48,996 bases of DNA from assembly GCA_947259215.1 (NCBI GenBank), contig CAMYLJ010000024.1, forward strand, positions 1 to 48,996, in the 5' to 3' direction. Below are positions 424 to 45,029 of the stretch, one piece after another. Positions within the stretch are counted from its first letter, which is position 1; each line of letters opens with the position of its first letter. The notes under the pieces are model-generated. The model had not been told where the DNA came from. It searched no databases and worked only from the letters and a program-made list of their open reading frames with translations. This DNA comes from an uncultured delta proteobacterium (GTDB taxonomy: Bacteria > Myxococcota_A > UBA9160 > JAFDET01). Made by a program: the position numbers and the translations under genes.

Positions 424-498
424 TGGAGCGGGAGACGGGGGTCGAACCCGCGACCCTCGGCTTGGGAAGCCGATGCTCTACCACTGAGCTACTCCCGC
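424..498 (-). tRNA. tRNA-Gly (anticodon CCC)
   Basis: The minus strand folds as a complete cloverleaf. The acceptor arms are GCGGGAG and CTCCCGC. The D arm is GCTC...GAGC. The anticodon stem TCGGC/GCCGA encloses the loop TTCCCAA, giving anticodon CCC. The T arm contains GGTTCGAACC. The discriminator is T and the CCA end is encoded (424-426). The tRNA reads GGG codons. A hairpin terminator follows at 382-414. No other RNA gene is adjacent. Confidence 0.95.
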
Positions 499-14489: not shown

Positions 14490-15128
14490 CTAGCGGCCCG
14501 CGGCCGCGCCCGAAGGCTGGCCGGCCGCCTCTGCCGGCGCGCCCTGGCCCTGGGGGTTCTCGCCCTTGTCGCCGGCCTTCGGCGCGCTCGGGTTCAACAG
14601 CTGCGCAGTCGCCTCGAAGCGGTTCAGCTTGAGGCCGCCCTTGCCCTGCAGCTCGGTCTTCGAGAGCTCCACCTCGCCGAAGTACGGCGAGTTGGCGAGC
14701 TCCGTCAGGAAGACCGCGACGATCTCGTTGTCCAGGCTCATGCCCTCGATCTTCAGGCTCGGGCCCTTGGCCGCGAGCTTCGTGATCCACATGCGATCGG
14801 GCGTCTTGGTGGCCAGCTCGTCCATCACGCGCACCGGGCCCGAGCGCGAGGCTTCCAGGTTGTGGATGACGTCGAGCTTCGCCTGCACCTGGTCGCGCTT
14901 CTGCTTGTACTCCTCGACCTTCTTGAGCTGCGGCTCGAACTGCTTGATCTGGGCCTGGGTCGAGGCCACCCGCTCGGTGGCGTCGGAGATCTTGCCCGTG
15001 ATCGAGAAGTGCATGAATCCGACCGACGCGACGCCCAGCGCCAGCAGGAATCCCAGCAGCAGGACCTGCTGATGGAGGTCGGCGCGTCGACGGGCCTCTC
15101 GGACCGGAAGCAGGTTGATTCGAATCAT
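14490..15128 (-). CDS. pilN: type IV pilus alignment protein PilN
   Basis: The product is 212 residues. It begins MIRINLLPVREARRR, the conserved PilM-binding peptide. One membrane segment (QVLLLGFLLALGVASVGFMH) follows, then a coiled coil (residues 45-90) and a periplasmic domain (DRMWITKLAAKGPSLKIEGM, FLTELANSPYFGEVELSKT). The C-terminus carries a Gly/Ala/Pro-rich tail of about 30 residues that most PilN proteins lack. The ATG overlaps the pilM stop by 4 bases. Confidence 0.94.
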   Translation of the reverse strand: MIRINLLPVREARRRADLHQQVLLLGFLLALGVASVGFMHFSITGKISDATERVASTQAQIKQFEPQLKKVEEYKQKRDQVQAKLDVIHNLEASRSGPVRVMDELATKTPDRMWITKLAAKGPSLKIEGMSLDNEIVAVFLTELANSPYFGEVELSKTELQGKGGLKLNRFEATAQLLNPSAPKAGDKGENPQGQGAPAEAAGQPSGAAAGR

Positions 15129-16198
15129 CGTTCGTCCATCCTCCGCAGGCCGAGCCCCACCCCGACCGTCATGAACGGGGCCATCTCCCGCAGATAGTCC
15201 TCGTCGAACTTCCGGCTCGGGAGCATCCGCTCGAAGGGGTTGAGGAGCTGCACCGGCACGTTGGTGCGATCCTGGAAGGCCTTCGCGAAGTCGGGAATCT
15301 GCGCGCTACCGCCCGACACCAGGATGCGGCCGATTCGGCTCTCCGCCGCGGTGGCCGTGAAGAAGTCCAGCGACCGGGTGATCTCGCCCAGCACCGTGTC
15401 GGTGACGGAGCGCATCGCCTGGTCCACCTCCTGGGGCACCACGTCCTGGCTGTCCTCGCTGGAGGCGTTGCCCAGCTTGATGCGCTCGGCCTCGCCGAAT
15501 CCGATCGACAGGGCCTTCTGGATCTCCTCGGTGTACTGGTTGCCGCCCGTGGAGATGTCGCGCGTGAACGCCGGGGATCCCTCCTGGATCACGTTGATGT
15601 TGACCACCTGCGCGCCCACGTTGACGAGCGCGACCACCTGGTTTGCCTCCGCCTGGTAGTTGGCCTCGAAGGCGTTCTCCACCGCAAAAGCCGCCACGTC
15701 CACGATCGAGGGGCTCATGCCCGCCTCACTGATGACCTGCACGTAGTCGTCGATCAGGTCCTTCTTGGCGGCCACCAGCAGGACGTCCATCTGGCCCTCG
15801 GTCTCGCCGCCGGGCAGGATCTGGAAGTCCAGGTTCACCTCGTTGACGTCGAACGGGATGTACTGCTCCGCCTCCCAGCGGATCGACTCCTCGAGCTCCT
15901 CCGCGGTCATGATCGGGAGGTTGATCTTCTTGACGATCACCGAGTGACCGGAGACCGCGGCCGAGACCTCCTTCGACCGGATGCCCGCGTTGGAGACGGC
16001 CTCCCGGATGGCATCCACGATGGCGGAGGAGTTCAGGAACGCACCCTGGACGATCGCCTCGGCCGGAACCGGTGCCATCCCCATGTGCGTCACCTCGAAG
16101 CCCTTCGACGAGACCTGGATCTCGACGGCCTTCACCGACGCGGAGCCGATGTCGAGTCCGACAATCGGCTTGGTCTTGTTCAGGAAAGGAAGCTGCAC
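15125..16198 (-). CDS. pilM: actin-like type IV pilus ATPase PilM
   Basis: The product is 357 residues, cytoplasmic, with the FtsA/actin fold. The phosphate-binding motif is IVGLDIGSASVKAVEIQ near residue 15. LPIMTAEELEESIRWEAEQY, PFDVNEVNLDFQIL and RILVSGGSAQIPDFAKAFQD are typical PilM segments. It binds the N-terminus of PilN, which is encoded next. The start is a GTG with AGGAGGAGACAAC before it. A small XRE regulator gene ends 21 bases upstream and is probably co-transcribed. Confidence 0.96.
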   Translation of the reverse strand: MQLPFLNKTKPIVGLDIGSASVKAVEIQVSSKGFEVTHMGMAPVPAEAIVQGAFLNSSAIVDAIREAVSNAGIRSKEVSAAVSGHSVIVKKINLPIMTAEELEESIRWEAEQYIPFDVNEVNLDFQILPGGETEGQMDVLLVAAKKDLIDDYVQVISEAGMSPSIVDVAAFAVENAFEANYQAEANQVVALVNVGAQVVNINVIQEGSPAFTRDISTGGNQYTEEIQKALSIGFGEAERIKLGNASSEDSQDVVPQEVDQAMRSVTDTVLGEITRSLDFFTATAAESRIGRILVSGGSAQIPDFAKAFQDRTNVPVQLLNPFERMLPSRKFDEDYLREMAPFMTVGVGLGLRRMDER

Positions 16199-16219: not shown

Positions 16220-16471
16220 CTACGCCCGTTCCTGGTCGCGGATCGAGAGCGCCGGGGCGTCCGGCTCCTCGACGAGAGCTCCGAAGACCCTGTCCTTGTC
16301 GGCAACCTTCATGCCGAGGGCGAGCAGAATCTTTCGCTTGGTGTCGAGCCGACAGGGACGGCCGCTCTCCACCCGATCGATGGTGAGCGTGGAGAGGCCG
16401 GCCTTTCGGGCCAGCTCTGCCTTGCTCATCATCAGGGCCTCGCGGAACCTTTGTACGTTGTTTCGCGCCAC
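16220..16471 (-). CDS. small XRE-family HTH regulator leading the pilMNOPQ operon
   Basis: The product is 83 residues. It is essentially one helix-turn-helix domain: FREALMMSKAELARKAGLST, then LTIDRVESGRPCRLDTKRKI, then LLALGMKVADKDRVF. The recognition helix would be LSTLTIDRVESG. The C-terminus (EEPDAPALSIRDQERA) is short and gives no sensor domain. The start is GTG 16471. A sigma-28-like promoter lies at 16541-16568, and pilM follows 21 bases after the stop. It could autoregulate the pilus operon. The target site is not known. Confidence 0.85.
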   Translation of the reverse strand: MARNNVQRFREALMMSKAELARKAGLSTLTIDRVESGRPCRLDTKRKILLALGMKVADKDRVFGALVEEPDAPALSIRDQERA

Positions 16472-16540: not shown

Positions 16541-16568
16541 GTATCGGCGTGGGGTTGCGGGGACTTGA
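16541..16568 (-). promoter_or_regulatory. sigma-28 (FliA)-like promoter of the XRE-pilMNOPQ operon
   Basis: On the minus strand TCAAG (16568-16564) and GCCGATAC (16548-16541) are separated by 16 bases counted from TCAA. This is one base more than the usual FliA spacing. The leader to GTG 16471 would be about 63 bases. The site lies back-to-back with a similar site for the response regulator on the plus strand. Confidence 0.5.
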
Positions 16569-16695: not shown

Positions 16696-18057
16696 GTGTC
16701 CCAGCGAGTGCTGATCGTGGACGACGACCCCGGCCTGCGCGAGAGCCTGGAGCTCGTGCTGGCCGCGGAGGGCTACGAGGTCGCCACGGCCCCGGACGGG
16801 GCTACCGCGCTGGAGATGGTGGAGACGCTGCCCACGGACGTGGTGCTCTGCGACCTGCGGATGCCCGGCATGGACGGGATGGAGCTGCTGCCCCTGCTCA
16901 GCCGGCGGCTGCCCGGGGCCACGGTCGTGTTGATGTCCGCCTACGGCACCCAGGATCTCGCGATCGAGGCCATGCGCCGGGGCGCCTACGACTACCTCGC
17001 CAAGCCGTTCCAGCCCTCCGAGGTGCTGCTGACCCTGAAGAAGGCGCGCGAGCGCGAGCGCCTGCGCCGCGCCAACGCCCTGCTCCGGCGCGAGGTGGAC
17101 CGCGCCGTCGGCGAGCGCCCGATCGTCGCGGCCTCCCCGGTCATGATCGACGTGCTGGAGCTGATGGAGCGGGCGGCGGAGTTCAAGACCACGGTGCTGC
17201 TGACGGGCGAGAGCGGAACCGGCAAGGAGGTGCTGGCGCGGGCCATCCACGCCCAGTCCGGCCGCCGCGAGGAATCCTTCGTGGCCGTGAACTGCGGCGC
17301 CATCCCCGAGGCGCTGCTGGAGAGCGAGTTGTTCGGGCACGCCAAGGGAGCCTTCACGGGGGCCGACCGCGCCCGGCGCGGCCTCTTCGTCGAGGCCAGC
17401 GGCGGAACCCTCTTTCTCGACGAGATCGGCGAGCTCCCGCCCGCCCTCCAGGTGAAGCTGCTGCGCGCCCTTCAGGAGGAGGAGGTCAGGCCCGTAGGCG
17501 AGAGCAAGCCGCGGCCCGTGGACGTGCGGGTGCTGGCGGCCACGGCCCGCGACCTGGAGGCCGACGTGGCGTCCGGCCGCTTCCGCGAGGACCTCTTCTA
17601 CCGGCTGAACGTGCTGCGGGTCCAGGTGCCGGCCCTGCGCGATCGCAAGCAGGACATTCCGCTGCTCGTCGACCACTTCCTGGCGCACTTCCGGGAGGCC
17701 CTGGGTCGGCCCGTGCGCGCCGTCAACGAGGACGCCCTGGAGAGGCTGGTGGGCTACGCCTGGCCCGGCAACGTGCGGGAGCTGGAGAACGTGATCGAGC
17801 GGGCCGTGATCCTGGCCGAGGACGAGTGCATCACACCGCGGGAGCTGCCGGAGAACGTGCTCGAAGGACCCGCCACGGCCTCGCCGCCGGGCCCCGGAGA
17901 CTACTCGCTGCGGCGGGCGAAGCGTGCGGCCGAGACGGAGACGATCCGACGGGCGCTCGCCGCCACCGACGGCAACCGGACCCGGGCGGCCCGGCTGCTC
18001 GAAATCAGCCACCGGGCCCTGCTCTACAAGCTCAAGGACTACGGGATCCGCGACTGA
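16696..18057 (+). CDS. NtrC-family sigma-54 response regulator (orphan)
   Basis: The product is 453 residues. The receiver domain (1-120) has the acidic pair DDDPG and a phosphorylatable Asp53 in LCDLRMPGMDGMELL, plus the KPF lysine. The AAA+ domain has GESGTGKE (171-178), the sigma-54 contact loop KGAFTGA, and Walker B GGTLFLDEIGEL. A Fis-type HTH (NRTRAARLLEISHRALLYKL) ends the protein. It activates sigma-54 promoters. GTG 16696 has GGGAG six bases upstream. No kinase gene is adjacent; the kinase at 25965-27458 has no regulator of its own and is a candidate partner. It is convergent with the lipoprotein gene. Confidence 0.93.
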   Translation: MSQRVLIVDDDPGLRESLELVLAAEGYEVATAPDGATALEMVETLPTDVVLCDLRMPGMDGMELLPLLSRRLPGATVVLMSAYGTQDLAIEAMRRGAYDYLAKPFQPSEVLLTLKKARERERLRRANALLRREVDRAVGERPIVAASPVMIDVLELMERAAEFKTTVLLTGESGTGKEVLARAIHAQSGRREESFVAVNCGAIPEALLESELFGHAKGAFTGADRARRGLFVEASGGTLFLDEIGELPPALQVKLLRALQEEEVRPVGESKPRPVDVRVLAATARDLEADVASGRFREDLFYRLNVLRVQVPALRDRKQDIPLLVDHFLAHFREALGRPVRAVNEDALERLVGYAWPGNVRELENVIERAVILAEDECITPRELPENVLEGPATASPPGPGDYSLRRAKRAAETETIRRALAATDGNRTRAARLLEISHRALLYKLKDYGIRD

Positions 18058-19485: not shown

Positions 19486-22400
19486 CTACTGGAGCTCGCG
19501 CCAGTAGAAGATGCCCTGGCCGGCGTTCGGCAGCGGCGGCGCGGGCGGCTTCTTGACCTCGTTCTCACTCGTCATCACGTAGATGTCGGCATCGTCACCC
19601 AGGGAGAGCCGCGAGGTGGTCGGCACCCCGTTCCCCAGGCTCAGCCGTCGCTTGTCGGCGGCGTTCGTGTTGCCCGGGAAGAAGCCCTCGCCGCTGTTCA
19701 CCTTGAAGATGTAGAGCGTCGCGGTTCCGCCCGAATCGCACGGGTCCCCACTGCCGTTCGGCGTGAAGGCGCCAGCGAACACGTAGAAGCCGATGATGTC
19801 CACCTCGGTCACGAACTTCTCGCCCTCGGGAGACACCAGGTAGTAGCCCATGGTGCTGAAGCTCGCGGCGCCGCTCACGTTCGTGATGTCCGTCAGGTCG
19901 GATTCCAGGATCTCCAGCGGACCGCTGCCACCGCGGTACGTGTTCATGTCCGGAAGGCCGAACTGATCGGGGTCCTCGAAGGAGTAGAAACGGTTGTTCT
20001 CCGAGTCGTCCAGCGGATCTGCCCCGCCGAAGGACGGATTTGCCCGCTCCCCCGTCCCTACGGCCAGCCACAGATCACCCCCGTAGATGGTCACGGCCGG
20101 CGGGAAGAAGAAGCTCTTGTAGTAGTCCGTCCCGCTGATCGTGGCCGAGGGCGCTGTGAACATCTTGCCGAAGGGCCACGCGCTCTGGCTCTTGTTCACG
20201 GTGCGGTCGGAGGGGCCAGGCAGCATCGGGTTGATGCTGTCCAGCGCCGGATCCCGGATCACCCACTTCCAGAGGTTGCCGCCGAGGTCGCCGATGTAGA
20301 CGATGTCGGCGAAGCCGTCGAAGTCACTGTCGATCACCGCGGGCGTGGAGGCGAAGCCGTACTGCATCGCCGAGTGCCCGCCCGCCGCGTTGCCCAGGGT
20401 GGGGTCCGCATCATTGTGGTGATAGAAGTGGGCCGCCAGCACCGCCCCCGTCTTGATGTCCACCATGAACACGCCCCGGCCCTTGCGGCTGGTGGCTGCG
20501 TCGGCCGTGGCGTCGTACGAGGTGGTGTTGGGATCGCTGCTCGGGTCGTAGCCCGCCCCGAAGATCGCGACCCAGCGCTCGTACACGCCGCCCGTGACGT
20601 CGCCCTGCACGTTCACCTTGACGCGGGTGATGATGGCCTTCGACCAGCTGTCACCCATGTAGTCCAGGTAGGTGTAGGTGCCCGAGGAGTCGAACCCGCG
20701 GGTCTCCCCTTCGAGCGGGAACTCCCACAGGTAGCCCGGATAGCTCGAGCCGAGGCTCGGGTCCGTCACGTCCAGCGCGAAATAGGCCGGCCCGCCCTGG
20801 CGCATGGACCCCACCAGCGCGGTCTTCCACTCGGACTGCGTCTTGGTGGGAGGCAGGCTCAGGTTGCTCGACGTGGCCGTCGGGTACATCCAGACGTCGG
20901 CGACGGACGGCGAGCCGTCCACGTAGTAGTAGCTCCGGTTGCCGATATCGATCGGGAGCTCCTTGATCGTCGTGCGGGCGTACCACGGCATGAAGCCGAA
21001 CCGCTCGACGCCCGTGCCGCGATCGTACACGCCGCCACCCACGTAGTTCCCCGAGTTGAAGGCGTGCAGGAAGCCCCCGTTCGAGCCGGCCATCAGGTGG
21101 CGCGTCCGCGTCGCGAACGTGGTGGCGAACTGCGCGTACGACAGCTCCGCGATGGACGTGTTGGGCGCACCCACCACGATCGGATCCGAGTGGAAGACGT
21201 CCGCCAGGGTCCGCGGGTTGCCGTCGATCCGCAGCCGCTCGAGGCAGGTGTTGGTGACCCCTGTCCCGAACGAGCAGCCGCGGACGTACTGCACGATCTC
21301 GTCCGCCAGTTCTTCCGCGTTCGTGGCGGCGCTCCCCGGGTAGGAGACCACGGGCGGATACGTCACCCCGAGCTGCACCGCGTTCGTGGCGAAGCTCTGG
21401 TCCCAGTTGAAGCGCGCGCCCGCAACGCTGGTGTAGAGCGTTCGCGCGTTCGGGTCCGGCATCTCGTCGGCTGCGTCCCAATGGGGCACCGCGCTCGGCA
21501 GGATCGGGCCCTCTTCACACTGGCTCGGCACCGGATCGTTCAGGGCGCAGTTGTTGTTCGCGTCCACGATCTCACCCGCCGCGTTCAGGGTGAAGGCCTT
21601 GATGTGGCCTTCCCAGAACGGGTCCGTCCCGGACGGAATGAAGAAGCTCGAGTAGAAGTTGCCCTGATCGGCCGTACGGGTCGCGGGGACCGTCGCTGCG
21701 GTGAAAGCCTGGGACTTCTGGATGATGTCCGTGATCGCCGCGATCAGCTGGGTGGCCAGCTGCTCGGCGTTGTTGCTGGTGTAGAACTGGCCGTTGCCCA
21801 GGGTCGCCGCAGAGCTCAGCAGCGCGTTGGCCGCAGCGTTGGTGGTGAATCCCACCGTGTACACGTCGATGTTCTGCACGCCCTGGAGGACCGGGTTGAA
21901 GTCCTTGTCCTGCATGAACTTGGCGACGTCGTCCAGGTAGAAGGCGCACTCGCTGCACGAGCCGCCCTTCTCGCCGGCCTCGGACGAGCCCGGCGCGTAG
22001 TCGCCGGTCGCGTAGTCGCCGATCAGGCTGGTCTTGAAGCTGCCGAAGCCAGCGTCGACGCGCGGACCGCCTCCCGGGCCGCTGCTGTCGGTGTCGAAGT
22101 CGTCGCGCGTCGGCTCACCGTCCGTCACGATGATCACGAAGCTCTTCTGGCAGTGGTACTGTACGGGTGACGGCGGCGGGCTGGCCGTCACGGCCCCGCC
22201 CTCGCCGGCGTCGCTGGTGCTGTAGTTGTACAGCGGGAAGCGGGTGCCGCTCGTCGTGGGCGGCGGACCCGTGCCCGGCGTGATGCCGAACGGCCGCTCC
22301 GAGCTCGTCCGGCTCATGAAGTACGTATAGACCTGGAAGAGCGTCTCCGCGAGCGGCGTCCACGTCTCCGGCGACAGGTTGGCGATCGCGTTCTCGAGCG

Positions 22401-23070
22401 CCGTGTCCTGGGCGGTGGAGTAGTCGTCGACAGGCACGATCACGTGTCCGCCCTCGGGGTCTCCCTCCTCGCGGAACTGCGCGATGCCGAACCGGACCTT
22501 GCCGGCCGCGTTCACCTGACAGATCACGTCGCGCAGCACGTCCTGGAGAGCCGTGGCTCGCGAGCGCCGGTACTTGAGGTAGGTCTGCTGCGACGCCGGG
22601 AGGGTGTTCTTGATGATCACGCACTGCGAGCGCGTACCGATCCCGCCCGACGCGCTGCCGGCGATCTCGTTGAGATACTGAGCGTGGGTCGGATTCGCCG
22701 AGTCGAGGCCGAAATACCACTGGAGGTAGACCGGATCCCAGCGGGTCGACCTGCCGCTCGGGAGATCGCCGTCGTGGTACAGGGTTCGCGTCTTTCCGCA
22801 GTACGTGTAGTTCGTGTCGGAAGTCACATAGTGGGTGCCGGCAGGCGTCGTGCACCACCACGCCGGCGTGGGGCTGACGCCCGGATCGAAGGCCGGATGC
22901 CAGACTGTGTGGGCCATGGACCCGGAGTTGTCGGCGACGATCAGGACGTTGGGCGCCACGGACGTCGAGAACAGCACCGAGTCGTCGGCGCGCCCCGCGC
23001 GGCCCGGCGTCAGCAACGCCAGGGCCATCGTCAGGATGCCAAGAATGCGAAGGAAGTTCGGAACGCGCAT
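19486..23070 (-). CDS. pilY1: type IV pilus tip adhesin PilY1
   Basis: The product is 1194 residues. A signal peptide (LRILGILTMALALLTPGRAG) is followed by a von Willebrand A-like domain with a metal motif DNSGS (D47, S49, S51) and VIIVTDGEP near residue 320. The C-terminal half is the PilY1 beta-propeller, including FALDVTDPSLG and the calcium loop DSDFDGFAD (about 911-921) before IVYIGDLGGNLWKW. It acts at the pilus tip with the minor pilins in adhesion and surface sensing. I chose ATG 23070 because GGGAG lies seven bases upstream; 15 further residues are open upstream. It lies between pilX and the PilY2-like gene. Confidence 0.94.
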   Translation of the reverse strand: MRVPNFLRILGILTMALALLTPGRAGRADDSVLFSTSVAPNVLIVADNSGSMAHTVWHPAFDPGVSPTPAWWCTTPAGTHYVTSDTNYTYCGKTRTLYHDGDLPSGRSTRWDPVYLQWYFGLDSANPTHAQYLNEIAGSASGGIGTRSQCVIIKNTLPASQQTYLKYRRSRATALQDVLRDVICQVNAAGKVRFGIAQFREEGDPEGGHVIVPVDDYSTAQDTALENAIANLSPETWTPLAETLFQVYTYFMSRTSSERPFGITPGTGPPPTTSGTRFPLYNYSTSDAGEGGAVTASPPPSPVQYHCQKSFVIIVTDGEPTRDDFDTDSSGPGGGPRVDAGFGSFKTSLIGDYATGDYAPGSSEAGEKGGSCSECAFYLDDVAKFMQDKDFNPVLQGVQNIDVYTVGFTTNAAANALLSSAATLGNGQFYTSNNAEQLATQLIAAITDIIQKSQAFTAATVPATRTADQGNFYSSFFIPSGTDPFWEGHIKAFTLNAAGEIVDANNNCALNDPVPSQCEEGPILPSAVPHWDAADEMPDPNARTLYTSVAGARFNWDQSFATNAVQLGVTYPPVVSYPGSAATNAEELADEIVQYVRGCSFGTGVTNTCLERLRIDGNPRTLADVFHSDPIVVGAPNTSIAELSYAQFATTFATRTRHLMAGSNGGFLHAFNSGNYVGGGVYDRGTGVERFGFMPWYARTTIKELPIDIGNRSYYYVDGSPSVADVWMYPTATSSNLSLPPTKTQSEWKTALVGSMRQGGPAYFALDVTDPSLGSSYPGYLWEFPLEGETRGFDSSGTYTYLDYMGDSWSKAIITRVKVNVQGDVTGGVYERWVAIFGAGYDPSSDPNTTSYDATADAATSRKGRGVFMVDIKTGAVLAAHFYHHNDADPTLGNAAGGHSAMQYGFASTPAVIDSDFDGFADIVYIGDLGGNLWKWVIRDPALDSINPMLPGPSDRTVNKSQSAWPFGKMFTAPSATISGTDYYKSFFFPPAVTIYGGDLWLAVGTGERANPSFGGADPLDDSENNRFYSFEDPDQFGLPDMNTYRGGSGPLEILESDLTDITNVSGAASFSTMGYYLVSPEGEKFVTEVDIIGFYVFAGAFTPNGSGDPCDSGGTATLYIFKVNSGEGFFPGNTNAADKRRLSLGNGVPTTSRLSLGDDADIYVMTSENEVKKPPAPPLPNAGQGIFYWRELQ

Positions 23071-23121
23071 GATCGCTCTCCCGCTAATGCTCGAGTCGTG
23101 GCCCCGCCGGCGCACGATTCC

Positions 23122-23661
23122 CTAGCCCCCGTAGCCCGAGAAGTTGAGGTCGCGCTTGCCGACCTCGACGCTCGACGACCCGCCGTTGGGCCCGGTGCCG
23201 AGCGAGTTGACCTGCCAGTACGAAATCAAGAAGCCCGTGTTGCCGCCCTGCGGGAGCTTCATTCCAATCGAGGTGGGCGGCCCGTCCCGCGTCCAGCACA
23301 GCGCCCGGGCGGGCGTGCAGGGGGAATTCCCCAGGTCGCCCGTGAACTGCGGCTGGGTCGTGTACGGATAGTCCGCCGCCGTGCCCAGGGAGGTCACCGT
23401 GATCGCGGGCGGCGTGAAGCGGTTGGGCCGTCCGCGCAGGATGTCGAGGCCGGTGTGAGCACCGGCTTCCGCCGCGTAGAACGCGATGCGGCTGCGCTTC
23501 TCGAAGCCGGTGACCTGCTGATCGCGGCTCACGGTATCCATGGCCGCCAGGCCGATCATGCCCATGAAGACCAGCAGCAGCACGGCCACCAGCAGGGCCG
23601 AGCCGTCCTGCCGCGGCTCCGTGGGTTCCTCTTCCAGATGTCGCGTCGGGTCGTTCATCAT
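23122..23661 (-). CDS. pilX: minor pilin PilX
   Basis: The product is 179 residues. The prepilin start is unusual: 20 residues (ending RQDG), then SALLVAVLLLVFMGMIGLAA. Mature position 5 is Val, not Glu, as in tip-like GspK/PilX pilins. The following YAAEAGAHTGLDILRGR is typical of PilX N domains. It helps prime pilus assembly with FimT, PilV, PilW and PilY1. ATG 23661 overlaps the pilW stop by one base; a second ATG at 23658 is equally possible. pilY1 follows 51 bases downstream. Confidence 0.88.
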   Translation of the reverse strand: MMNDPTRHLEEEPTEPRQDGSALLVAVLLLVFMGMIGLAAMDTVSRDQQVTGFEKRSRIAFYAAEAGAHTGLDILRGRPNRFTPPAITVTSLGTAADYPYTTQPQFTGDLGNSPCTPARALCWTRDGPPTSIGMKLPQGGNTGFLISYWQVNSLGTGPNGGSSSVEVGKRDLNFSGYGG

Positions 23662-24695
23662 CACAGGTCCCTGAAGCCCACGTTTCGCGTCCGGATCACG
23701 GCCCGGTGCACGCGCCGCCGGAAACGATCGGTCCCGGCTGGCGCCGTCCGATTCTCGGTGGCCTGGAAGCGTCCCTCGCTGTAGCTGACGTTCGGATCCT
23801 GGCCCCGGGTGCGCATCACGAAGCTCAGCCGCACCTCCCGCAGGTCGTTCCCCACGGCGGCAGCGGAGCTGTAGACGGGCGGGTTGTGCCCACCGCCCTG
23901 GGCCAGTGCGCCCGGCTCCTCGGACCCGTTGGCCGCGGGCACCCCGTTGTTGTCGATGTCGAAGAAGAACGAGACCTGGAAATCCTCGACGTCGGTCGCC
24001 AGAAGCGTCCCGTCCCGGATCAGGTTGAGAGTGCCAGGGGCGATCGTGTAGCGATGCGCGGGCACCGCCACGAAGGCGCCGCCTACGCCCGCAGCCAGCT
24101 GGGACTCCCAGTTCACCGAAACGTTCATGGCCGCACCCGGATTCGGATTTGCGGGGATCGTGGTGATCACGCCGCATGCGGCGCCGCGCGCCGTGTTGCT
24201 GACGTCGGTGACGATGATGCCGCCGTTCTGGATGAAATCGGTGTCCATGATCGCGTCCGCATCGACGTCGAAGAACGCTCCGTCACCGTCCGGAATCGCG
24301 CTGTCAGCGAGAGTCATGTTCGCGCCGCTGCTGCCCGTCACGAATCCGTACGGCGGCGTGCTCGTGATGTTCACGGCCACGTCCGGATCGTTCACGCCCG
24401 TGGGATTGAGCTGGTCGGAAGCGCTGATGTAGAGGACGTCGGGGCCATTGGTGCTGTCCACGGCACAGACGGCGGCGCCCTCGGGCACGAGCAGGCCGAG
24501 CTCGCGGATCTCGGCCTCCAACAGGCCCGCGATCGCCCGGGAGTTCTGCTGGGCCTCGGTCAGGTGCTCCACCACCGTGTAGGTGCGGTGCTGGACCGTG
24601 AACGTCTGCATCAGGTACATCACCACGATCGCCATCAGGGCGGTCGCGATCAGAAGCTCGATCAACGTGAAGCCGGCGAGGCGTCGCGGGGCCAT
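23661..24695 (-). CDS. pilW: minor pilin PilW
   Basis: The product is 344 residues. The leader MAPRRLAG is cut before FTLIELLIATALMAIVVMYL, with Glu at mature position 5. The remainder is a large globular domain with a Gly/Asp/Ala-rich beta region (DGDGAFFDVDADAIMDTDFI) and a C-terminal segment RRRVHRAVIRTRN typical of PilW. It belongs to the priming complex. ATG 24695 shares one base with the pilV stop. Confidence 0.9.
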   Translation of the reverse strand: MAPRRLAGFTLIELLIATALMAIVVMYLMQTFTVQHRTYTVVEHLTEAQQNSRAIAGLLEAEIRELGLLVPEGAAVCAVDSTNGPDVLYISASDQLNPTGVNDPDVAVNITSTPPYGFVTGSSGANMTLADSAIPDGDGAFFDVDADAIMDTDFIQNGGIIVTDVSNTARGAACGVITTIPANPNPGAAMNVSVNWESQLAAGVGGAFVAVPAHRYTIAPGTLNLIRDGTLLATDVEDFQVSFFFDIDNNGVPAANGSEEPGALAQGGGHNPPVYSSAAAVGNDLREVRLSFVMRTRGQDPNVSYSEGRFQATENRTAPAGTDRFRRRVHRAVIRTRNVGFRDL

Positions 24696-25132
24696 CAGTA
24701 GTTGAACCTCACGGTGGAGACGACCATCTGCTTGTTCGGGTTCGGATCCTCGGGCTCGGTCCAGCTGACGCGCACGTCCACGTTGCGGGTCTGGCCCACC
24801 ACGACGTCCGCCACGCGCTGCTCGAGTCCGAAGGTCATCTCGGTGTAGGTGCCGCTGTTGGCATCCACCTGGATGGTGACGGGCGCCAGCACGGTCCAGC
24901 CTCCGGTGGGCGGCACCGAGGCCCAAGGCAGATACTGGACGGTCTCCATCCGGTCCTGGGCCACGATGGTGGCCTGCATGACGTGCTTGCTCTCGCGTCC
25001 CGTCTGGAGCGAGTAGATCTGCATCGCCGCCAGCCCCAGGAGGCCGAAGGCCAGCACGGTCAGGGCGATCAACACCTCGAGCAGCGTGAAGCCCGCCGTG
25101 GTCCGCTCTCGTCGCGTGGTTTTTCGCTGCAT
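24695..25132 (-). CDS. pilV: minor pilin PilV
   Basis: The product is 145 residues. The leader MQRKTTRRERTTAG precedes FTLLEVLIALTVLAFGLLGL, with Glu5 and the GLLGLAAMQ pattern of PilV/GspI proteins. A small globular domain follows (TMTIQ-like strands, NVDVRVSWTEPED). ATG 25132 overlaps the fimT stop by one base. The frame stays open for 300 codons upstream, but that is antisense to fimT coding. Confidence 0.9.
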   Translation of the reverse strand: MQRKTTRRERTTAGFTLLEVLIALTVLAFGLLGLAAMQIYSLQTGRESKHVMQATIVAQDRMETVQYLPWASVPPTGGWTVLAPVTIQVDANSGTYTEMTFGLEQRVADVVVGQTRNVDVRVSWTEPEDPNPNKQMVVSTVRFNY

Positions 25133-25782
25133 CAGTTCCACGTCCCGGTACCCTGCTGCCACCCGCTCACCCGCACCCCACCCAGGGTGGAGAGCGAGAT
25201 CGAGTAGTCCACACGGCCATTGGTGATGTAGACGCCGCCGCCACCGGTACCGACCCGGCCTGCGGCGCAGAGAGCGGTGAGTCCCACGGGCACGCCGTCC
25301 GGCCGGAACCTCACGAACCAGGCGGGCGGGTTGCCGGCGGCCGGCGGAGGCTGGGTGAACGTCAGGGGACGCGACCCGACGCCCGTGTCCATGGGCGCGT
25401 TGACGGTCACGTTGGTCGTGGCGATCTGCACCCCGTCCCCGACGGCGAAGTCGCGGAGCCCTTCGCCCGCGTCTGCGGTGCAGTTCGAAGTTCCAGGCGC
25501 TCCGTCGTCGAGTACGCGGATGAATGCACGGCCGGCGCCATCGATGAAGGGAGTGCCGGCGAGATCGGCGCCGAGGAAGACCACGAAGTTGTTGCCCGTG
25601 CGCATGGCCTCGCTGCGCGCCAGGTAGAACGCGTCCGCCACCGTCATGGCGGTCGCGCGCACGCGGTTGTCGATCATCCAGTCGCGGAGGCGGGGCACGG
25701 CCATCGCGGCGAGCACGCCGATGATGCCGACGACCACCATCACTTCCACGAGTGTGAATCCGGATTGCCTGCGCTGGGCCAC
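25132..25782 (-). CDS. fimT: minor pilin FimT/FimU (GspH-like)
   Basis: The product is 216 residues. The leader MAQRRQSG is cut before FTLVEVMVVVGIIGVLAAMA. GspH/FimT features follow: ATAMTVADAFYLARSEAMRT, then a beta domain ending LGGVRVSGWQQG. I chose GTG 25782 because GGAGG lies nine bases upstream. An in-frame ATG at 25848 would sit inside the sigma-54 promoter and add 22 residues with no prepilin logic. The gene leads the fimT-pilV-pilW-pilX-pilY1 operon, and a sigma-54 promoter with an upstream palindrome precedes it. FimT and FimU are hard to tell apart without alignment. Confidence 0.9.
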   Translation of the reverse strand: MAQRRQSGFTLVEVMVVVGIIGVLAAMAVPRLRDWMIDNRVRATAMTVADAFYLARSEAMRTGNNFVVFLGADLAGTPFIDGAGRAFIRVLDDGAPGTSNCTADAGEGLRDFAVGDGVQIATTNVTVNAPMDTGVGSRPLTFTQPPPAAGNPPAWFVRFRPDGVPVGLTALCAAGRVGTGGGGVYITNGRVDYSISLSTLGGVRVSGWQQGTGTWN

Positions 25783-25831: not shown

Positions 25832-25847
25832 AGCAAGGCTCGTGCCA
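25832..25847 (-). promoter_or_regulatory. sigma-54 promoter of the fimT-pilY1 operon
   Basis: TGGCAC (25847-25842), five bases GAGCC, then TTGCT (25836-25832) on the minus strand is an exact -24/-12 sigma-54 element. The predicted start is near 25822, leaving a 40-base leader to GTG 25782. PilR, encoded two genes upstream, is the likely activator. The sequence match is direct; the link to PilR is inferred. Confidence 0.85.
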
Positions 25848-25926
25848 TGCGTGACTTCTCGGCCAACCCGTTGAGAGACTTGATGCTTTGGAGTTCGGGG
25901 CAGGACTTCAGCAGCCGGCAGAACCA

Positions 25927-25947
25927 CGCAGTCCGGTTCGCACTGCG
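25927..25947. promoter_or_regulatory. palindrome upstream of the sigma-54 promoter, candidate PilR enhancer
   Basis: CGCAGT (25927-25932) and ACTGCG (25942-25947) flank a 9-base spacer. The centre lies about 115 bases upstream of the predicted start, the normal distance for NtrC-type enhancer sites. A single palindrome is seen, whereas many enhancers are doubled. Identification as a PilR site is inference. Confidence 0.5.
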
Positions 25948-25964
25948 CAAGAATCTTCAGAGTG

Positions 25965-27458
25965 TCACGTGGAACCACTGGCGCGGACCGCGACCTGTGC
26001 GGAGACCGCTCGCGGGAGGCGCAGCGCGAAGGTCGCACCCTCGCCGCCGCTCTCCAGATCGAGGCGACCGCCGTTCTCCTCCGCCAGGCGCAGGGCGTTG
26101 GACAGGCCCAGGCCGGTGCCTTCCCCCGGGTCCTTGGTGGTGAAGAAGGGATCGAAGATCCGCTCCCGGTCCGCCTCGTCGACGCCCGGGCCGTTGTCGC
26201 TCACGCGGCAGCAGATGGCGTCGGGCTCGCGGCGGGCGCTGGCCGCGGTGACATCCTCTCCCGCCCGCAGGTGGAGCGGCGCCGGCCCCACCCGCAGCTC
26301 GATCCGCGGCTGCGACCGGCCGCGCACGGCGTCGGCGGCGTTCAGCAGCAGGTTGAGCAGGATCTGGGTGACTGCATGGGAGTCGGCCAGCGCCCGCGTC
26401 GGCCCGGGTTCCCGCACGACCTCGATCGCGATCCCCGCGTAGCGGCGTTGGGCCCGCACCAAGGCGGCCGTCTCCTCGGCCGCGGCCGCCAGGTCCAGCG
26501 GCTCCGGGACGCCGCGCTCGGGACGGGAGAAGTCCAGCAGCTGGCGCAGGATCTCCCGCACGCGTTCGCCCTCCCGGGCCGCCCGCGCCAGGTGATCGCG
26601 CCCGCTCGGAGAGAGCCCGGGGTCCCGAGCGGCCAGGTCGAGGAAGGCCAGGATGGCGCCCATGGGATTGCCCACCTCGTGGGCCACGCCGGCAGCCAGG
26701 CGGCCCACGGCCGCCAGCCGCTCGGCCCGATCGAGACCGGCCCGCGCCTCCCGCAGCTCGCGGTTGGCGCCCCGCAGATCGGCCACCGCCTTCTCGAGCG
26801 CTCCGGTGCGAAGCGCCAGGGCCTCGGTCATGACGTTGAAGGTCGCTGCCAGGTCGGCGGTCTCGCGCGTGCCCTCCACGGGCACCTGGGTCTCCGCGTC
26901 GCCCCGCGCGACGGCCTCGGCCGCATCCCGCAAGCGGCGCAGGGGCAGCACCAGCCGTCGCCGCAGGAGGGAGCCCCCGAAGACCGTGAAGATGGCCGCG
27001 TCGGCCAGCAGCACCGCCAGCGCCACGCGTCGCGGGGCGGTGTGGAGGCGACGCGACGCATCCTGGGGAAGCCGCGCGATGGCGACCCGCCCGCCCGCAT
27101 CGAGCGGAACCGCAAAGCGCGCCGGCTCGCCCGGCCCGCCCACCCGCAGCAGGGCCGCGCTCGCCAGGCTCGCTTCGCGCCCGAGCTCGAGGGAGCCGGC
27201 ATCCGGCGGCTCGCCACCTCGCTCCCGAGGATGGGCCCGGCCCTCCCCGTCCACGAACCACCAGCGCGTGCCCGGCACGACGGAGAGCGCAGGGAGATGG
27301 GGACTGCGTGCCTCGATGCTCAAGGCGGACGCCAGCACCGGCTGGAAGACGCGCTCGTGGTGGGTGACCAGCACGATGGCCAGGACGCCGGTCGCCGCGG
27401 CCATCACGAGCGCCAGGCTCGCCAGGACTTCGGCCTGGAGGCCCGGCCGCCGAGCCAT
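25965..27458 (-). CDS. sensor histidine kinase, third gene after pilSR
   Basis: The product is 497 residues. Two membrane segments (about 10-32 and 144-164) flank a small extracytoplasmic sensor. HAMP follows (about 165-215), then the H box GVAHEVGNPMGAILAF with His260, and the ATP domain with N box (ILLNLLLNAADAV), SDNGPGVDEADRERIFDPFF and GEGTGLGL. It starts 8 bases after the pilR stop and so is probably co-transcribed. No response regulator gene follows it. The orphan NtrC regulator at 16696-18057 is a candidate partner, and PilR itself is another. The signal it senses is unknown. Confidence 0.88.
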   Translation of the reverse strand: MARRPGLQAEVLASLALVMAAATGVLAIVLVTHHERVFQPVLASALSIEARSPHLPALSVVPGTRWWFVDGEGRAHPRERGGEPPDAGSLELGREASLASAALLRVGGPGEPARFAVPLDAGGRVAIARLPQDASRRLHTAPRRVALAVLLADAAIFTVFGGSLLRRRLVLPLRRLRDAAEAVARGDAETQVPVEGTRETADLAATFNVMTEALALRTGALEKAVADLRGANRELREARAGLDRAERLAAVGRLAAGVAHEVGNPMGAILAFLDLAARDPGLSPSGRDHLARAAREGERVREILRQLLDFSRPERGVPEPLDLAAAAEETAALVRAQRRYAGIAIEVVREPGPTRALADSHAVTQILLNLLLNAADAVRGRSQPRIELRVGPAPLHLRAGEDVTAASARREPDAICCRVSDNGPGVDEADRERIFDPFFTTKDPGEGTGLGLSNALRLAEENGGRLDLESGGEGATFALRLPRAVSAQVAVRASGST

Positions 27459-27466
27459 CGCCCGTC

Positions 27467-28858
27467 TCAGGCGTCGCCCGCGGGCGACTCGTCGAGGCCG
27501 AGCTTGTCGAGCCGGTAGCGGAACGATCGGAAGGAGATCCCGAGCAGCTGGGCCGCTCGCTTCTTCACGCCACCGGAGCGCTGGAGCGCCTCCAGGATCA
27601 GGCTGCGCTCGAAGGCGTTCAGCGTCTGGTCCAGGTCGAGACCCTCGGACGGGATCCGCGAGGCGAGCGTGGACTCCTTGCGCCGGAGCACGCTCGGCGG
27701 CAGGGCGTCGCGGCGGATCTCGGACTCGCGGGTCAGGGCCACCGCGCGCTCGATCACGTTCTCCAGCTCGCGCACGTTGCCGGGAAAGTCGTGGTCCATG
27801 AGCGCATCGATCGCCTCTTCATTGCAGCCGCTGAGAGGCTTGCCGAGCTCGTCCGCGTACTTCTCGACGAAGTGGTGCACCAGCAGCGGTACGTCCTCGG
27901 GACGCTCGCGCAAGGGCGGAAGCACGATCTCGATCACGTTGAGCCGGTAGTAGAGGTCCTCGCGAAAGCGCCCCGCGACCACCTCCTCCTCGAGCCGCCG
28001 GTTGGTGGCGGCGACGATCCGGACGTCGACCCGCTGATCGCCGGTGCCGCCCACGCGCCGGATGCTCTTGTCCTGGATCGCCCGCAAGAGCTTCACCTGG
28101 AGCGCCGGCGAGAGCTCACCGATCTCGTCGAAGAAGAGGGTGCCGTCGTCCGCGGTCTCGAACAGCCCGGGCTTGTTCTGCACGGCGCCGGTGAAGGCGC
28201 CCTTCACGTGCCCGAAGAGCTCGGACTCCAGCAGGTTGTCCGGAATGGCCGCGCAGTTGACCGCCACGAAGGGCTTCTCGCTGCGATCGCTCTGATCGTG
28301 GATCGCACGCGCGACGAGCTCCTTGCCCGTCCCGCTCTCCCCCTGGATCAGCACGTTGGTCTTGGTCTCCGCCACCTGCGCGATCAGGTCGTACACGCGC
28401 TGCATGGCGCCGCTGTTCCCGATCAGGCTGCGGTGCCGTCTCTGGCTCCGCAGCTGGGTCCGCAGGCGGCGGTTCTCGGAGGCGAGGTTCTTCTTCTCGA
28501 GCGCTTTCTCCACCACCACCGCGATCTCGTCCAACTTGAAGGGCTTGGTGATGTAGTCCTGGGCGCCCTGCTTCATGGCGGCGATGGCCGTCTCGGTGGT
28601 TCCGAAGGCCGTGATCATCACGACCGGCGTCTCGGGAGTCCCCTCGCGGACCGCGGCCAGCAGCTCGAGACCCGAGCGCTCGGGCATCTGGAGGTCCGTG
28701 ATCACCAGATCGAAGTCGTCGGACTCGACCGCGAGCAGCGCTTCGTCGACGCTGTCGCAGGTGGTGACGTCGTACCCCTCCCGACGGAAGAACATCTCCA
28801 GGAACTCCCGCATGCTGAGTTCGTCGTCGACGACGAGGATGCGCGACCGCTCGTTCAC
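27467..28858 (-). CDS. pilR: sigma-54 response regulator PilR
   Basis: The product is 463 residues. The receiver domain has DDELSMREF and a phosphorylatable Asp55 (LVITDLQMPERSG), with KPF at about 105. The AAA+ domain has GESGTGKE (173-180), GAFTGA (220-225) and LFFDE (242-246). A Fis-type HTH (KKRAAQLLGISFRSFRYRLD) ends the protein. PilR, activated by PilS, switches on sigma-54 pilin promoters. The GTG start overlaps the pilS stop by 4 bases (GTGA). A sigma-54 promoter for the minor-pilin operon lies downstream, past the third kinase. Confidence 0.94.
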   Translation of the reverse strand: MNERSRILVVDDELSMREFLEMFFRREGYDVTTCDSVDEALLAVESDDFDLVITDLQMPERSGLELLAAVREGTPETPVVMITAFGTTETAIAAMKQGAQDYITKPFKLDEIAVVVEKALEKKNLASENRRLRTQLRSQRRHRSLIGNSGAMQRVYDLIAQVAETKTNVLIQGESGTGKELVARAIHDQSDRSEKPFVAVNCAAIPDNLLESELFGHVKGAFTGAVQNKPGLFETADDGTLFFDEIGELSPALQVKLLRAIQDKSIRRVGGTGDQRVDVRIVAATNRRLEEEVVAGRFREDLYYRLNVIEIVLPPLRERPEDVPLLVHHFVEKYADELGKPLSGCNEEAIDALMDHDFPGNVRELENVIERAVALTRESEIRRDALPPSVLRRKESTLASRIPSEGLDLDQTLNAFERSLILEALQRSGGVKKRAAQLLGISFRSFRYRLDKLGLDESPAGDA

Positions 28859-30585
28859 AGCTCCTCCACCGCCTCGGGCAGCAGGATCGAGAAGGTCGTG
28901 CCCTCGCCCGGAGCGCTCTCGACCCGCACGCTCCCGGCGTTGCCCTCGACGATCCGGTGCACGGTGGCCAATCCCAGCCCCGTACCCTCGGGCTTGGTCG
29001 TGAAGAAGGGATCGAAGATCCGTTCGAGCGTCTCGGGGGGAATCCCCACGCCGGTGTCGGCGACGCGGACGTCCACCCAGGCACTCCCCTCCCTCACGGA
29101 GTCGTTTCGGCCGGCGATCGGGTGCTCTTGAGGCGGCTCGTCGAGCCGCTGGGCCTCGAGTGTGAGGCGGCCGCCGTCGGGCATCGCCTGCACGGCATTG
29201 GTGCAGAGATTCCAGAGCAGCTGGCGCAGCTGGGCCGGGTCGGCGAGCACTCGCAGCGTCGGCGCCACGTGCTGCTCGAGCTTCACGTCGGGCCGACCCG
29301 TGGCCTCGAACATCTCCGCCACCTCGGAAACGGTCCGGGCCAGATCCACCGGCTCGGGTCTGGCCACTGGCGGGTGTGCGTAGTGGAGGAAGTCCGTGAT
29401 GAGCGAATTGAGGCGATCGGTCTCGCGCATCACGATGTCCGTGAGCCGATGGCGCTCCTCCGGGCCCCGGGCACCCGCCTCGTCCAGCAGCATCTGGATC
29501 GAGCCGGAGATGGCGGCCAGGGGATTCCTGACCTCGTGGGCGATGTCGGCGGCGAGCCGGCCCGTGGCTGCCAGGCGCTCCGAGCGCCGCAGCTCCGCCT
29601 CCATCTCCACCACCCGGGTCACGTCCTGGAAGATCACGACCGCACCGATGGGACGCCCCTGCTCGTCGCGGAGCATCGAGCCCGACAGGCCCAGGTGAAG
29701 CTCCTCCCCGGCCCGCCCGCGATAGGCCATCCGCTCGCGCAGCTTGGGGCGCGCCAGCCCCCCGACAACCGGGTCCACCACCCGCGCGCGCGCGCCGGGC
29801 AGCACGTCTTCGATCTCCCCGCCCAGGGCCCGGGAGACCGGTACGCCCGTGATCCGCTCCGCCTCGCGGTTGAACGACGTGATGCGTCCCTGCAGGTCGG
29901 TGGTGAGCAGGCCGCTCATCAGGCTCTCGACCGTCCGCTCGTGCAGGCTGCGGAGCAGGTGCAGCCGGCTCTCGCTGGCGTCGAGCTGCTCGTCGACGCG
30001 AGACAGCTCGCGGGAGAGATGGCTCGCCAGCAGCGCCACCACGAACAGCGCCCCCGCGTGCACGCTCCAGGTGGCCAGCAGCAGCGCACCCTCGGTCGCA
30101 GAGGCCTCGCCGTAGTCCGGAACGAGGCCCTCGCGCACGGCCAGCAGGACGGCCCCGTGGGCGGCGGCCGAGAGCGCGGCAGCGGCGAAGGCGCCGCGCC
30201 GCTCCGCCAGCATGCCTCCGAACACGACGACCAACACGTAGAGGAACGCGAAGACGGACTGATCGCCGCCCGAGAAGTAGACCAGCGCCGTCACGATGCC
30301 GACGTCCACGGGAATCTGGACGGCGGCGAAGGAGCCCACGCGGGCCAGCTGGCGGTGCAAGACCCCGAAGGCCACCGTGGTCAGGAAGGCCGCCACCAGG
30401 GCTGCGTACAGGCCGCGCGTCGCCGCGGCCGCTCCTGACCCACCGGAAACCCCCAGCAGGCCCAGGGCGGCCCCGAAGACCGCCAGCGCCAGCAGCAGGC
30501 GCGCGGCCATCAGACGTGCGACGCGCGTCTGGATGCGCCCGCCGGCGCGCGAGGCCCCCTCCGGATGCGGAACGGGCCCCGCCAC
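28855..30585 (-). CDS. pilS: sensor histidine kinase PilS
   Basis: The product is 576 residues. About six membrane segments lie in residues 25-190, as in PilS. A PAS domain follows (about 215-325: TVESLMSGLLTTDLQGRITS, then VVIFQDVTRV). The H box is ADIAHEVRNPLAAISG with His350. The N box is LLWNLCTNAVQAM, and the G boxes are DTGVGIP, FDPFFTT and GTGLGLA. It phosphorylates PilR. The start is GTG 30585, nine bases after the pilC stop, with no clear ribosome site; a later ATG (codon 26) is possible. It overlaps pilR by 4 bases. Confidence 0.93.
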   Translation of the reverse strand: MAGPVPHPEGASRAGGRIQTRVARLMAARLLLALAVFGAALGLLGVSGGSGAAAATRGLYAALVAAFLTTVAFGVLHRQLARVGSFAAVQIPVDVGIVTALVYFSGGDQSVFAFLYVLVVVFGGMLAERRGAFAAAALSAAAHGAVLLAVREGLVPDYGEASATEGALLLATWSVHAGALFVVALLASHLSRELSRVDEQLDASESRLHLLRSLHERTVESLMSGLLTTDLQGRITSFNREAERITGVPVSRALGGEIEDVLPGARARVVDPVVGGLARPKLRERMAYRGRAGEELHLGLSGSMLRDEQGRPIGAVVIFQDVTRVVEMEAELRRSERLAATGRLAADIAHEVRNPLAAISGSIQMLLDEAGARGPEERHRLTDIVMRETDRLNSLITDFLHYAHPPVARPEPVDLARTVSEVAEMFEATGRPDVKLEQHVAPTLRVLADPAQLRQLLWNLCTNAVQAMPDGGRLTLEAQRLDEPPQEHPIAGRNDSVREGSAWVDVRVADTGVGIPPETLERIFDPFFTTKPEGTGLGLATVHRIVEGNAGSVRVESAPGEGTTFSILLPEAVEEL

Positions 30586-32975: not shown

Positions 32976-34679
<1,704 letters not shown>

Positions 34680-34806: not shown

Positions 34807-34834
34807 TTATCGGCGTGCGGCAGGGGGATCTTTA
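34807..34834 (-). promoter_or_regulatory. sigma-28 (FliA)-like promoter of the pilB operon
   Basis: TAAAG (34834-34830) and GCCGATAA (34814-34807) on the minus strand are 16 bases apart counted from TAAA. The TAA of TAAA is also the stop codon of the upstream membrane-protein gene. Both boxes match FliA consensus, with spacing one base long. The pilB leader would be about 120 bases. Confidence 0.5.
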
Positions 34835-44955: not shown

Positions 44956-44971
44956 GGGCACGGAATTTGCT
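44956..44971 (+). promoter_or_regulatory. sigma-54-like promoter of the DUF5658/lytic transglycosylase pair
   Basis: GGGCAC (44956-44961), GGAAT, TTGCT (44967-44971) matches the -24/-12 element except for the first base (G for T). Spacing is exact. The predicted start is near 44982, giving a leader of about 48 bases to ATG 45030. An activator site was not identified. Confidence 0.6.
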
Positions 44972-45021: not shown

Positions 45022-45029
45022 GCGGAGCG

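Follow-up and report, generated by a model that had tools for sequence, protein, structure and literature searches.

A 'flagellar' sigma factor of the FliA/WhiG type appears to have been reassigned to the type IV pilus machinery in an uncultured delta proteobacterium apparently devoid of flagella. In the window, i.e. the whole stretch of 48,996 nucleotides that was analysed, the tip operon fimT-pilV-pilW-pilX-pilY1 is preceded by a putative composite promoter that consists, in the order of transcription and on the reverse strand, of a candidate activator array (positions 25950–25927), a sigma-28 (FliA/WhiG-type) element (25883–25858) and a sigma-54 promoter (25847–25832), with the sigma-54 start predicted ~40 nt ahead of the fimT GTG. 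Comparison of related loci shows that these three predicted parts are kept at nearly fixed spacing and that the machinery operons (pilB-T-C-S-R and XRE-pilM) carry a sigma-28-type promoter only. In the most likely scheme, the pilus machine depends on FliA/WhiG, and the tip and major pilins are gated by sigma-54 together with dedicated activators; for the composite promoter and this division of labor taken as a whole, the sequence comparisons lead us to a probability of roughly 0.7. In the scheme that we infer for recognition, activation, choice of activator and polymerase competition, the FliA/WhiG sigma, retained without flagella, would switch on the machine via the pilB and pilM operons and would also contribute at fimT and pilA, and the sigma-54 RNA polymerase, opened by an array-bound NtrC-type activator (PilR being the first candidate), would control the tip pilins and PilY1. 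At fimT, the stretches of DNA covered by the two polymerases would overlap, so that the two sites probably act as alternatives.

The genome consists of 5.70 Mb in 128 contigs, and its completeness of 95.7% limits all claims of absence made here. Forty loci were found in relatives via PilR orthologues, with the gene order pilB-T-C-S-R-kinase followed, in most of them, by fimT-V-W-X-Y1; the locus counts below are drawn from related draft genomes and are thus non-independent samples. A kinase-based scan of named genomes yielded one clear relative, a Myxococcales bacterium (L070), the remaining matches being distant kinases.

In the window, the reverse strand encodes pilS (28855–30585; Pfam 6TM_PilS, 6.3e-14), a pilR-like sigma-54 activator (27467–28858; Response_reg, Sigma54_activat and HTH_8, with syntenic orthologues), a HAMP histidine kinase conserved in position between pilR and fimT (25965–27458; HAMP, HisKA, HATPase_c), the type IV minor pilin gene fimT (25132–25782; N_methyl, 1.2e-9) and the remainder of the tip operon, pilV, pilW, pilX and pilY1 (19486–25132; N_methyl, T4P_PilY1 and synteny), among which pilV has a near-cutoff NCBIfam match and pilX is named from position and weak similarity only. 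As the initial annotation of this DNA had it, pilR ends 1.5 kb upstream of fimT on the same strand. Further along this strand lie a small XRE-type HTH gene (16220–16471; HTH_3, 2.4e-6) and pilM (15125–16198; TIGR01175, 278.7 bits, over the cut-off). A second NtrC-type activator (16696–18057, forward strand; Response_reg, Sigma54_activat, HTH_8) is divergent from the pilM operon. PilB (32976–34679, reverse strand) has an MshE-type c-di-GMP-binding N-terminal domain (NF053729, 46.2 bits, above the cut-off), through which c-di-GMP might act on the pilus motor. A riboswitch in the pilM leader was considered and dropped: Rfam gave none in the window, where its only match is a tRNA gene (427–498, reverse strand), and the XRE gene fills the apparent 335-nt leader.

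The sigma-54 site upstream of fimT, TGGCACGAGCCTTGCT at 25847–25832, matches all 12 scored positions of TGGCACG-N4-TTGCW, with the GG and GC dinucleotides in frame, and is the sole full match in the window (shuffled windows, mean 0.0). Genome-wide, TGGCAC-N5-TTGC occurs 25 times, whereas the reversed pattern used as a control is absent. Of these sites, 20 others were opened, and most of them lie 30–150 nt 5' of a plausible gene; two of these genes look, from our reading of their sequence, like ammonium transporters. RpoN is encoded in the genome (Sigma54_DBD, 211.6 bits). Of 27 loci, 23 have a score of 10/12 or better within 160 nt upstream of fimT, and 26 have 9/12 or better; at the former threshold, no locus has a site upstream of pilB, T, C, S, R, the kinase, V, W, X, M or the divergent NtrC gene, and pilY1 has its own site in 7 of 18 loci (L034, L046, L050, L051, L055, L062, L065). 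The sigma-54 site remains ahead of fimT in two loci with an inverted tip operon, L046 and L050; in a third inverted locus (L066), the fimT match is weak (8/12). The predicted fimT promoter is accordingly judged to be real and conserved across related families, and the TGGCAC-N5-TTGCT site reported earlier, 50 nt from the fimT GTG, stands, with a complete match, no counterpart in shuffles and 23 of 27 loci behind it. A second sigma-54-like site in the window, GGGCACGGAATTTGCT (44956–44971, forward strand), is found ~57 nt 5' of a possible start at 45029; the ORF is small and membrane-protein-like, and CGTCACC occurs upstream of the site.

The promoter also bears on the start codon of fimT. The GTG at 25782, ~50 nt past the -12 box, has a Shine-Dalgarno sequence (GGGAGGA, 25797–25791) and gives a short prepilin leader (VAQRRQSG/FTLVE). 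It is favored because the alternative in-frame ATG, at 25848, falls within the promoter, overlapping the -24 box, and precedes the predicted transcription start (~25821); the earlier proposal that the promoter settles the start is in this sense supported. A separate sigma-54 promoter for the predicted fimT-pilV-pilW-pilX-pilY1 unit is strongly supported by conservation, by a promoter that stays with fimT where the arrangement is inverted and by the GTG start.

The palindrome CGCAGT-N9-ACTGCG, which had been proposed as the enhancer of this promoter, does occur at 25947–25927, with its center ~116 nt ahead of the predicted start, yet neither its enhancer role nor its conservation is supported. 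Perfect palindromes with 6-bp arms (spacer 3–15) appear in 46% of the dinucleotide shuffles of the 182-bp gap, the palindrome is no more frequent in the genome (2 places per strand pattern, as for the control), and in two sister genomes the arms pair at just 3/6 and 2/6 positions, so it was discarded as a conserved element. At the same location, a de novo motif search of the region upstream of fimT identified tTGCGgggt.CGCA.gg...TGCG (log-likelihood 346, compared with 89–104 in five shuffled sets), with the consensus TTGCG-N5-CG(C/A)A-N6-TGCG. This candidate activator array, TTGCG-CAGTG-CGAA-CCGGAC-TGCG in the window (25927–25950, reverse strand), takes the place of the palindrome and ends, in most loci, at a near-fixed distance of 75–79 nt before the TGG of the sigma-54 site. 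By eye, TTGCG/CGCA/TGCG-like arrays are also seen upstream of the pilY1 site in the seven loci where pilY1 has its own promoter; among the 20 further sigma-54 sites of this genome that were opened, none matches the pattern. PilR is a plausible activator at fimT, being a syntenic orthologue with the GAFTGA loop in its Sigma54_activat domain, and is a candidate reader of the array.

The best candidate for the major pilin gene, pilA (L165; G000:C2:98711-98130), has its own sigma-54 site, TGGCACGACCATTGCT, and such a site (at least 10/12) is present in 28 of the 30 loci with a homologue. The initial annotation had suggested a search for the palindrome before pilA; no palindrome is shared by the two promoters, and pilA carries instead the enhancer GaCG....tCGTCACt (GaCG-N6-CGTCAC; log-likelihood 340, compared with 87–98 in shuffled sets), which ends ~105–150 nt before TGG. 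Elsewhere in the genome, a sequence similar to this enhancer, GACACAATTTGCGTCAC, lies ~112 nt upstream of another sigma-54 site (L304; G000:C12, site at 76387). The pilA enhancer differs from the fimT array, and hence a single PilR box for both promoters is not supported; this calls for either a pair of activators or one that recognizes two very different sites. Given a similar two-sigma layout but a different enhancer, the major and tip pilins could be gated separately. It is conceivable, and we give this a little over one chance in three, that the fimT array is read by another NtrC-type activator, such as the pilM-divergent one (16696–18057) or the one adjacent to fliA, with PilR reading CGTCAC at pilA: there are two sigma-54 pilus promoters with two different enhancers, and three NtrC-type regulators are linked to the pil and fliA loci, but pilR is the nearest of these, on the same strand, and the array lies within the same gene cluster. 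In the fliA-adjacent regulator (L162:13948-15324; G000:C24:62847-64223), GAFTSA replaces GAFTGA, which may alter the contact with sigma-54.

The sigma-28 element is the part of the system that the initial annotation did not notice. Scored against T(A/C)AAG-N15-GCCGATA(A), at least 10 of 12 positions match upstream of pilB in 12/12 loci and of pilM in 14/14, these being the loci with upstream DNA available, and near fimT in 21/27 (2.3% of shuffles). Perfect sites precede pilB in 10 of 11 loci (190-nt test), pilM in 8 of 14 and fimT in 7 of 27, with a frequency of 0.0000 in shuffles; at the 10/12 threshold, none was found at pilT, C, V, W and Y1, and one each at pilS and the kinase. In the window, all on the reverse strand, TAAAG-N15-GCCGATAA (34807–34834) before pilB (GTG 34679) and TCAAG-N15-GCCGATAC (16541–16568) ~70 nt before the XRE gene are perfect, and TCAAG-N15-GCCGAG before fimT (25858–25883), 10 nt upstream of the -24 box, has one mismatch; at pilA, the TAAA/GCCGATAA-type element is weaker. 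In most loci, the fimT element (TCAAG-N15-GCCGAT) ends 8–11 nt upstream of TGG. It is absent in family f7 (L037, L039, L043, L045), which retains the pilB element, and in L036. The classical sigma-28 spacer is 15 nt; here (TAAA-N16-GCCGATA), it is one base longer.

Two further sets of matches were put aside. A loose genome scan (TCAA-N14-18-GCCGAT) gave 62 matches compared with 12 in the control, but was not used as evidence because many are probably codon-driven (N16 holds AAG and GCC/GAT in one frame). The TCAAG...GCCGAAAC matches ~280 nt upstream of pilR are inside pilS and probably protein-driven. The small XRE-type gene, an unlisted one that follows the sigma-28 site and precedes pilM, encodes a possible regulator of this operon. 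Another FliA/WhiG target is possible at L265 (G000:C65), where a perfect sigma-28 site (4340-4314, reverse strand) lies ~48 nt ahead of an ORF of 211 aa whose start resembles a signal peptide.

These sites recast the claim that the tip pilins and PilY1 form a PilR regulon separate from the pilB operon. The separate sigma-54 unit survives and the contrast is right in substance, but what lies behind it had gone unnoticed: pilB and pilM carry the sigma-28 element without a sigma-54 site, and fimT carries both.

The genome encodes one FliA/WhiG protein above the cut-off (TIGR02479, 276 bits; cut-off 189.6), on which the SigB/F/G model scores far below its cut-off. Its gene (G000:C24:64650-65330) is ~15.6 kb past the end of the window on the same contig, beside the NtrC-type regulator, in a neighborhood conserved in the seven loci compared, and no flagellar genes were recognized in this neighborhood. 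Searches for fliF, flagellin and FlgM gave no match in this draft genome (95.7% complete), so that the regulon would work with the sigma-28 consensus without being a flagellar one. Among the 51 FliA-positive genomes, all drafts, 36 gave neither a fliF nor a flagellin match at the thresholds used; none of the 14 genomes that have FliA together with fliF carries the two on one contig, and in nine genomes fliA is on the same contig as pilR. The seven flagellin promoters of relatives that the start finder could read, most flagellin loci being unreadable, have sigma-54 sites of 10–11/12 and no good sigma-28 site. The co-occurrence of FliA and PilR (46 genomes with both, 6 with neither, 4 with PilR only, 5 with FliA only) is given no weight as a sign of function, since at least nine genomes have the two genes in physical linkage and all of the genomes are drafts. 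The sigma-28 element at pilA is retained in G018 and G020 although FliA was not found there; given the linkage of fliA and pilR, one missing contig could explain this.

The elements beside the sigma-54 sites can be read differently: the TCAAG-N15-GCCGAT sequences at fimT and pilA could be protein-binding sites or relics, with pilB and pilM the only true FliA/WhiG promoters. The pilA element, 22–23 nt upstream of the sigma-54 site in most loci, has a poor -35 half, and the next base is often C or G; the fimT element of this genome reads GCCGAG; and in G020 the element at pilA persists with FliA undetected. The 12/12 matches at seven fimT loci, compared with none in shuffles, and the constant spacing to the sigma-54 site argue against this, and we regard it as unlikely, at about one chance in four of being correct in our judgement. 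The weakest alternative, a plain PilR/sigma-54 promoter with PilR bound to the palindrome, no other sigma factor and the same palindrome at pilA, is improbable: the sigma-54 site is confirmed and pilR is linked and syntenic, but the palindrome is unconserved and expected by chance, the pilA enhancer is another sequence, and the conserved sigma-28 element is ignored.

The preferred reading, FliA/WhiG for the machine and sigma-54 for the tip and major pilins, can be extended across an order of Myxococcota, with odds that we consider even. The flagellar-clade sigma would have become a pilus sigma that drives the machine in flagella-less lineages (and not flagellin in flagellated ones) and acts in tandem with sigma-54 at pilin genes, with separate tip and shaft enhancers, so that machine, tip and shaft would each have an input of their own. 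Such wiring offers a reason for the persistence of FliA/WhiG in flagella-less bacteria, and predicts that different activators switch the pilus tip (fimT-pilY1) and shaft (pilA), which bears on the choice between adhesion and movement.

Control of pilins by PilSR and sigma-54 is known in Pseudomonas aeruginosa, Geobacter and Kingella, and the present system is similar in having genes for PilS (6TM) and PilR in the pil cluster and a sigma-54 promoter at pilA and, in addition, at the minor pilin operon; it differs in the placement of the pilB and pilM operons under putative sigma-28 promoters. In P. aeruginosa, minor pilin genes are affected when PilR is lost, and the hallmarks of PilR sites are TGT-N11-AGA and GTCT elements (PMC6058289); here, the fimT and pilA enhancers differ from each other and neither has these hallmarks. 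The flagellar FliA (sigma-28) regulon shares the sigma family and the promoter consensus, but its fliF, flagellin and FlgM were not found here, no relative has fliA on its fliF contig, and the flagellin promoters that could be read in relatives are of the sigma-54 type. In Synechocystis, which moves by pili, normal major pilin mRNA depends on the group 3 sigma factor SigF, mutations in which strongly reduce pilA1 mRNA (PMC8546353); the sigma factor here scores as FliA/WhiG above the cut-off, and the promoters are on machinery operons. Among open-licence papers, none was found on FliA and type IV pili in Myxococcota. The nearest precedent is WhiG of Rubrobacter (the RsiG-c-di-GMP-WhiG switch), which was inferred to control type IV pili via the flagellar consensus, with mapping of transcript starts (PMC8325347). 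The two cases share a FliA/WhiG-family sigma, the flagellar consensus ahead of pil operons and the absence of the usual task; Rubrobacter belongs to Actinobacteria, with no sigma-54 layer described there, and the system described here would be its Gram-negative counterpart. Sigma-54/PilSR and WhiG control of pili being already known, the difference here would lie in the wiring, with sigma-28 for the machine and sigma-54 for the tip and shaft.
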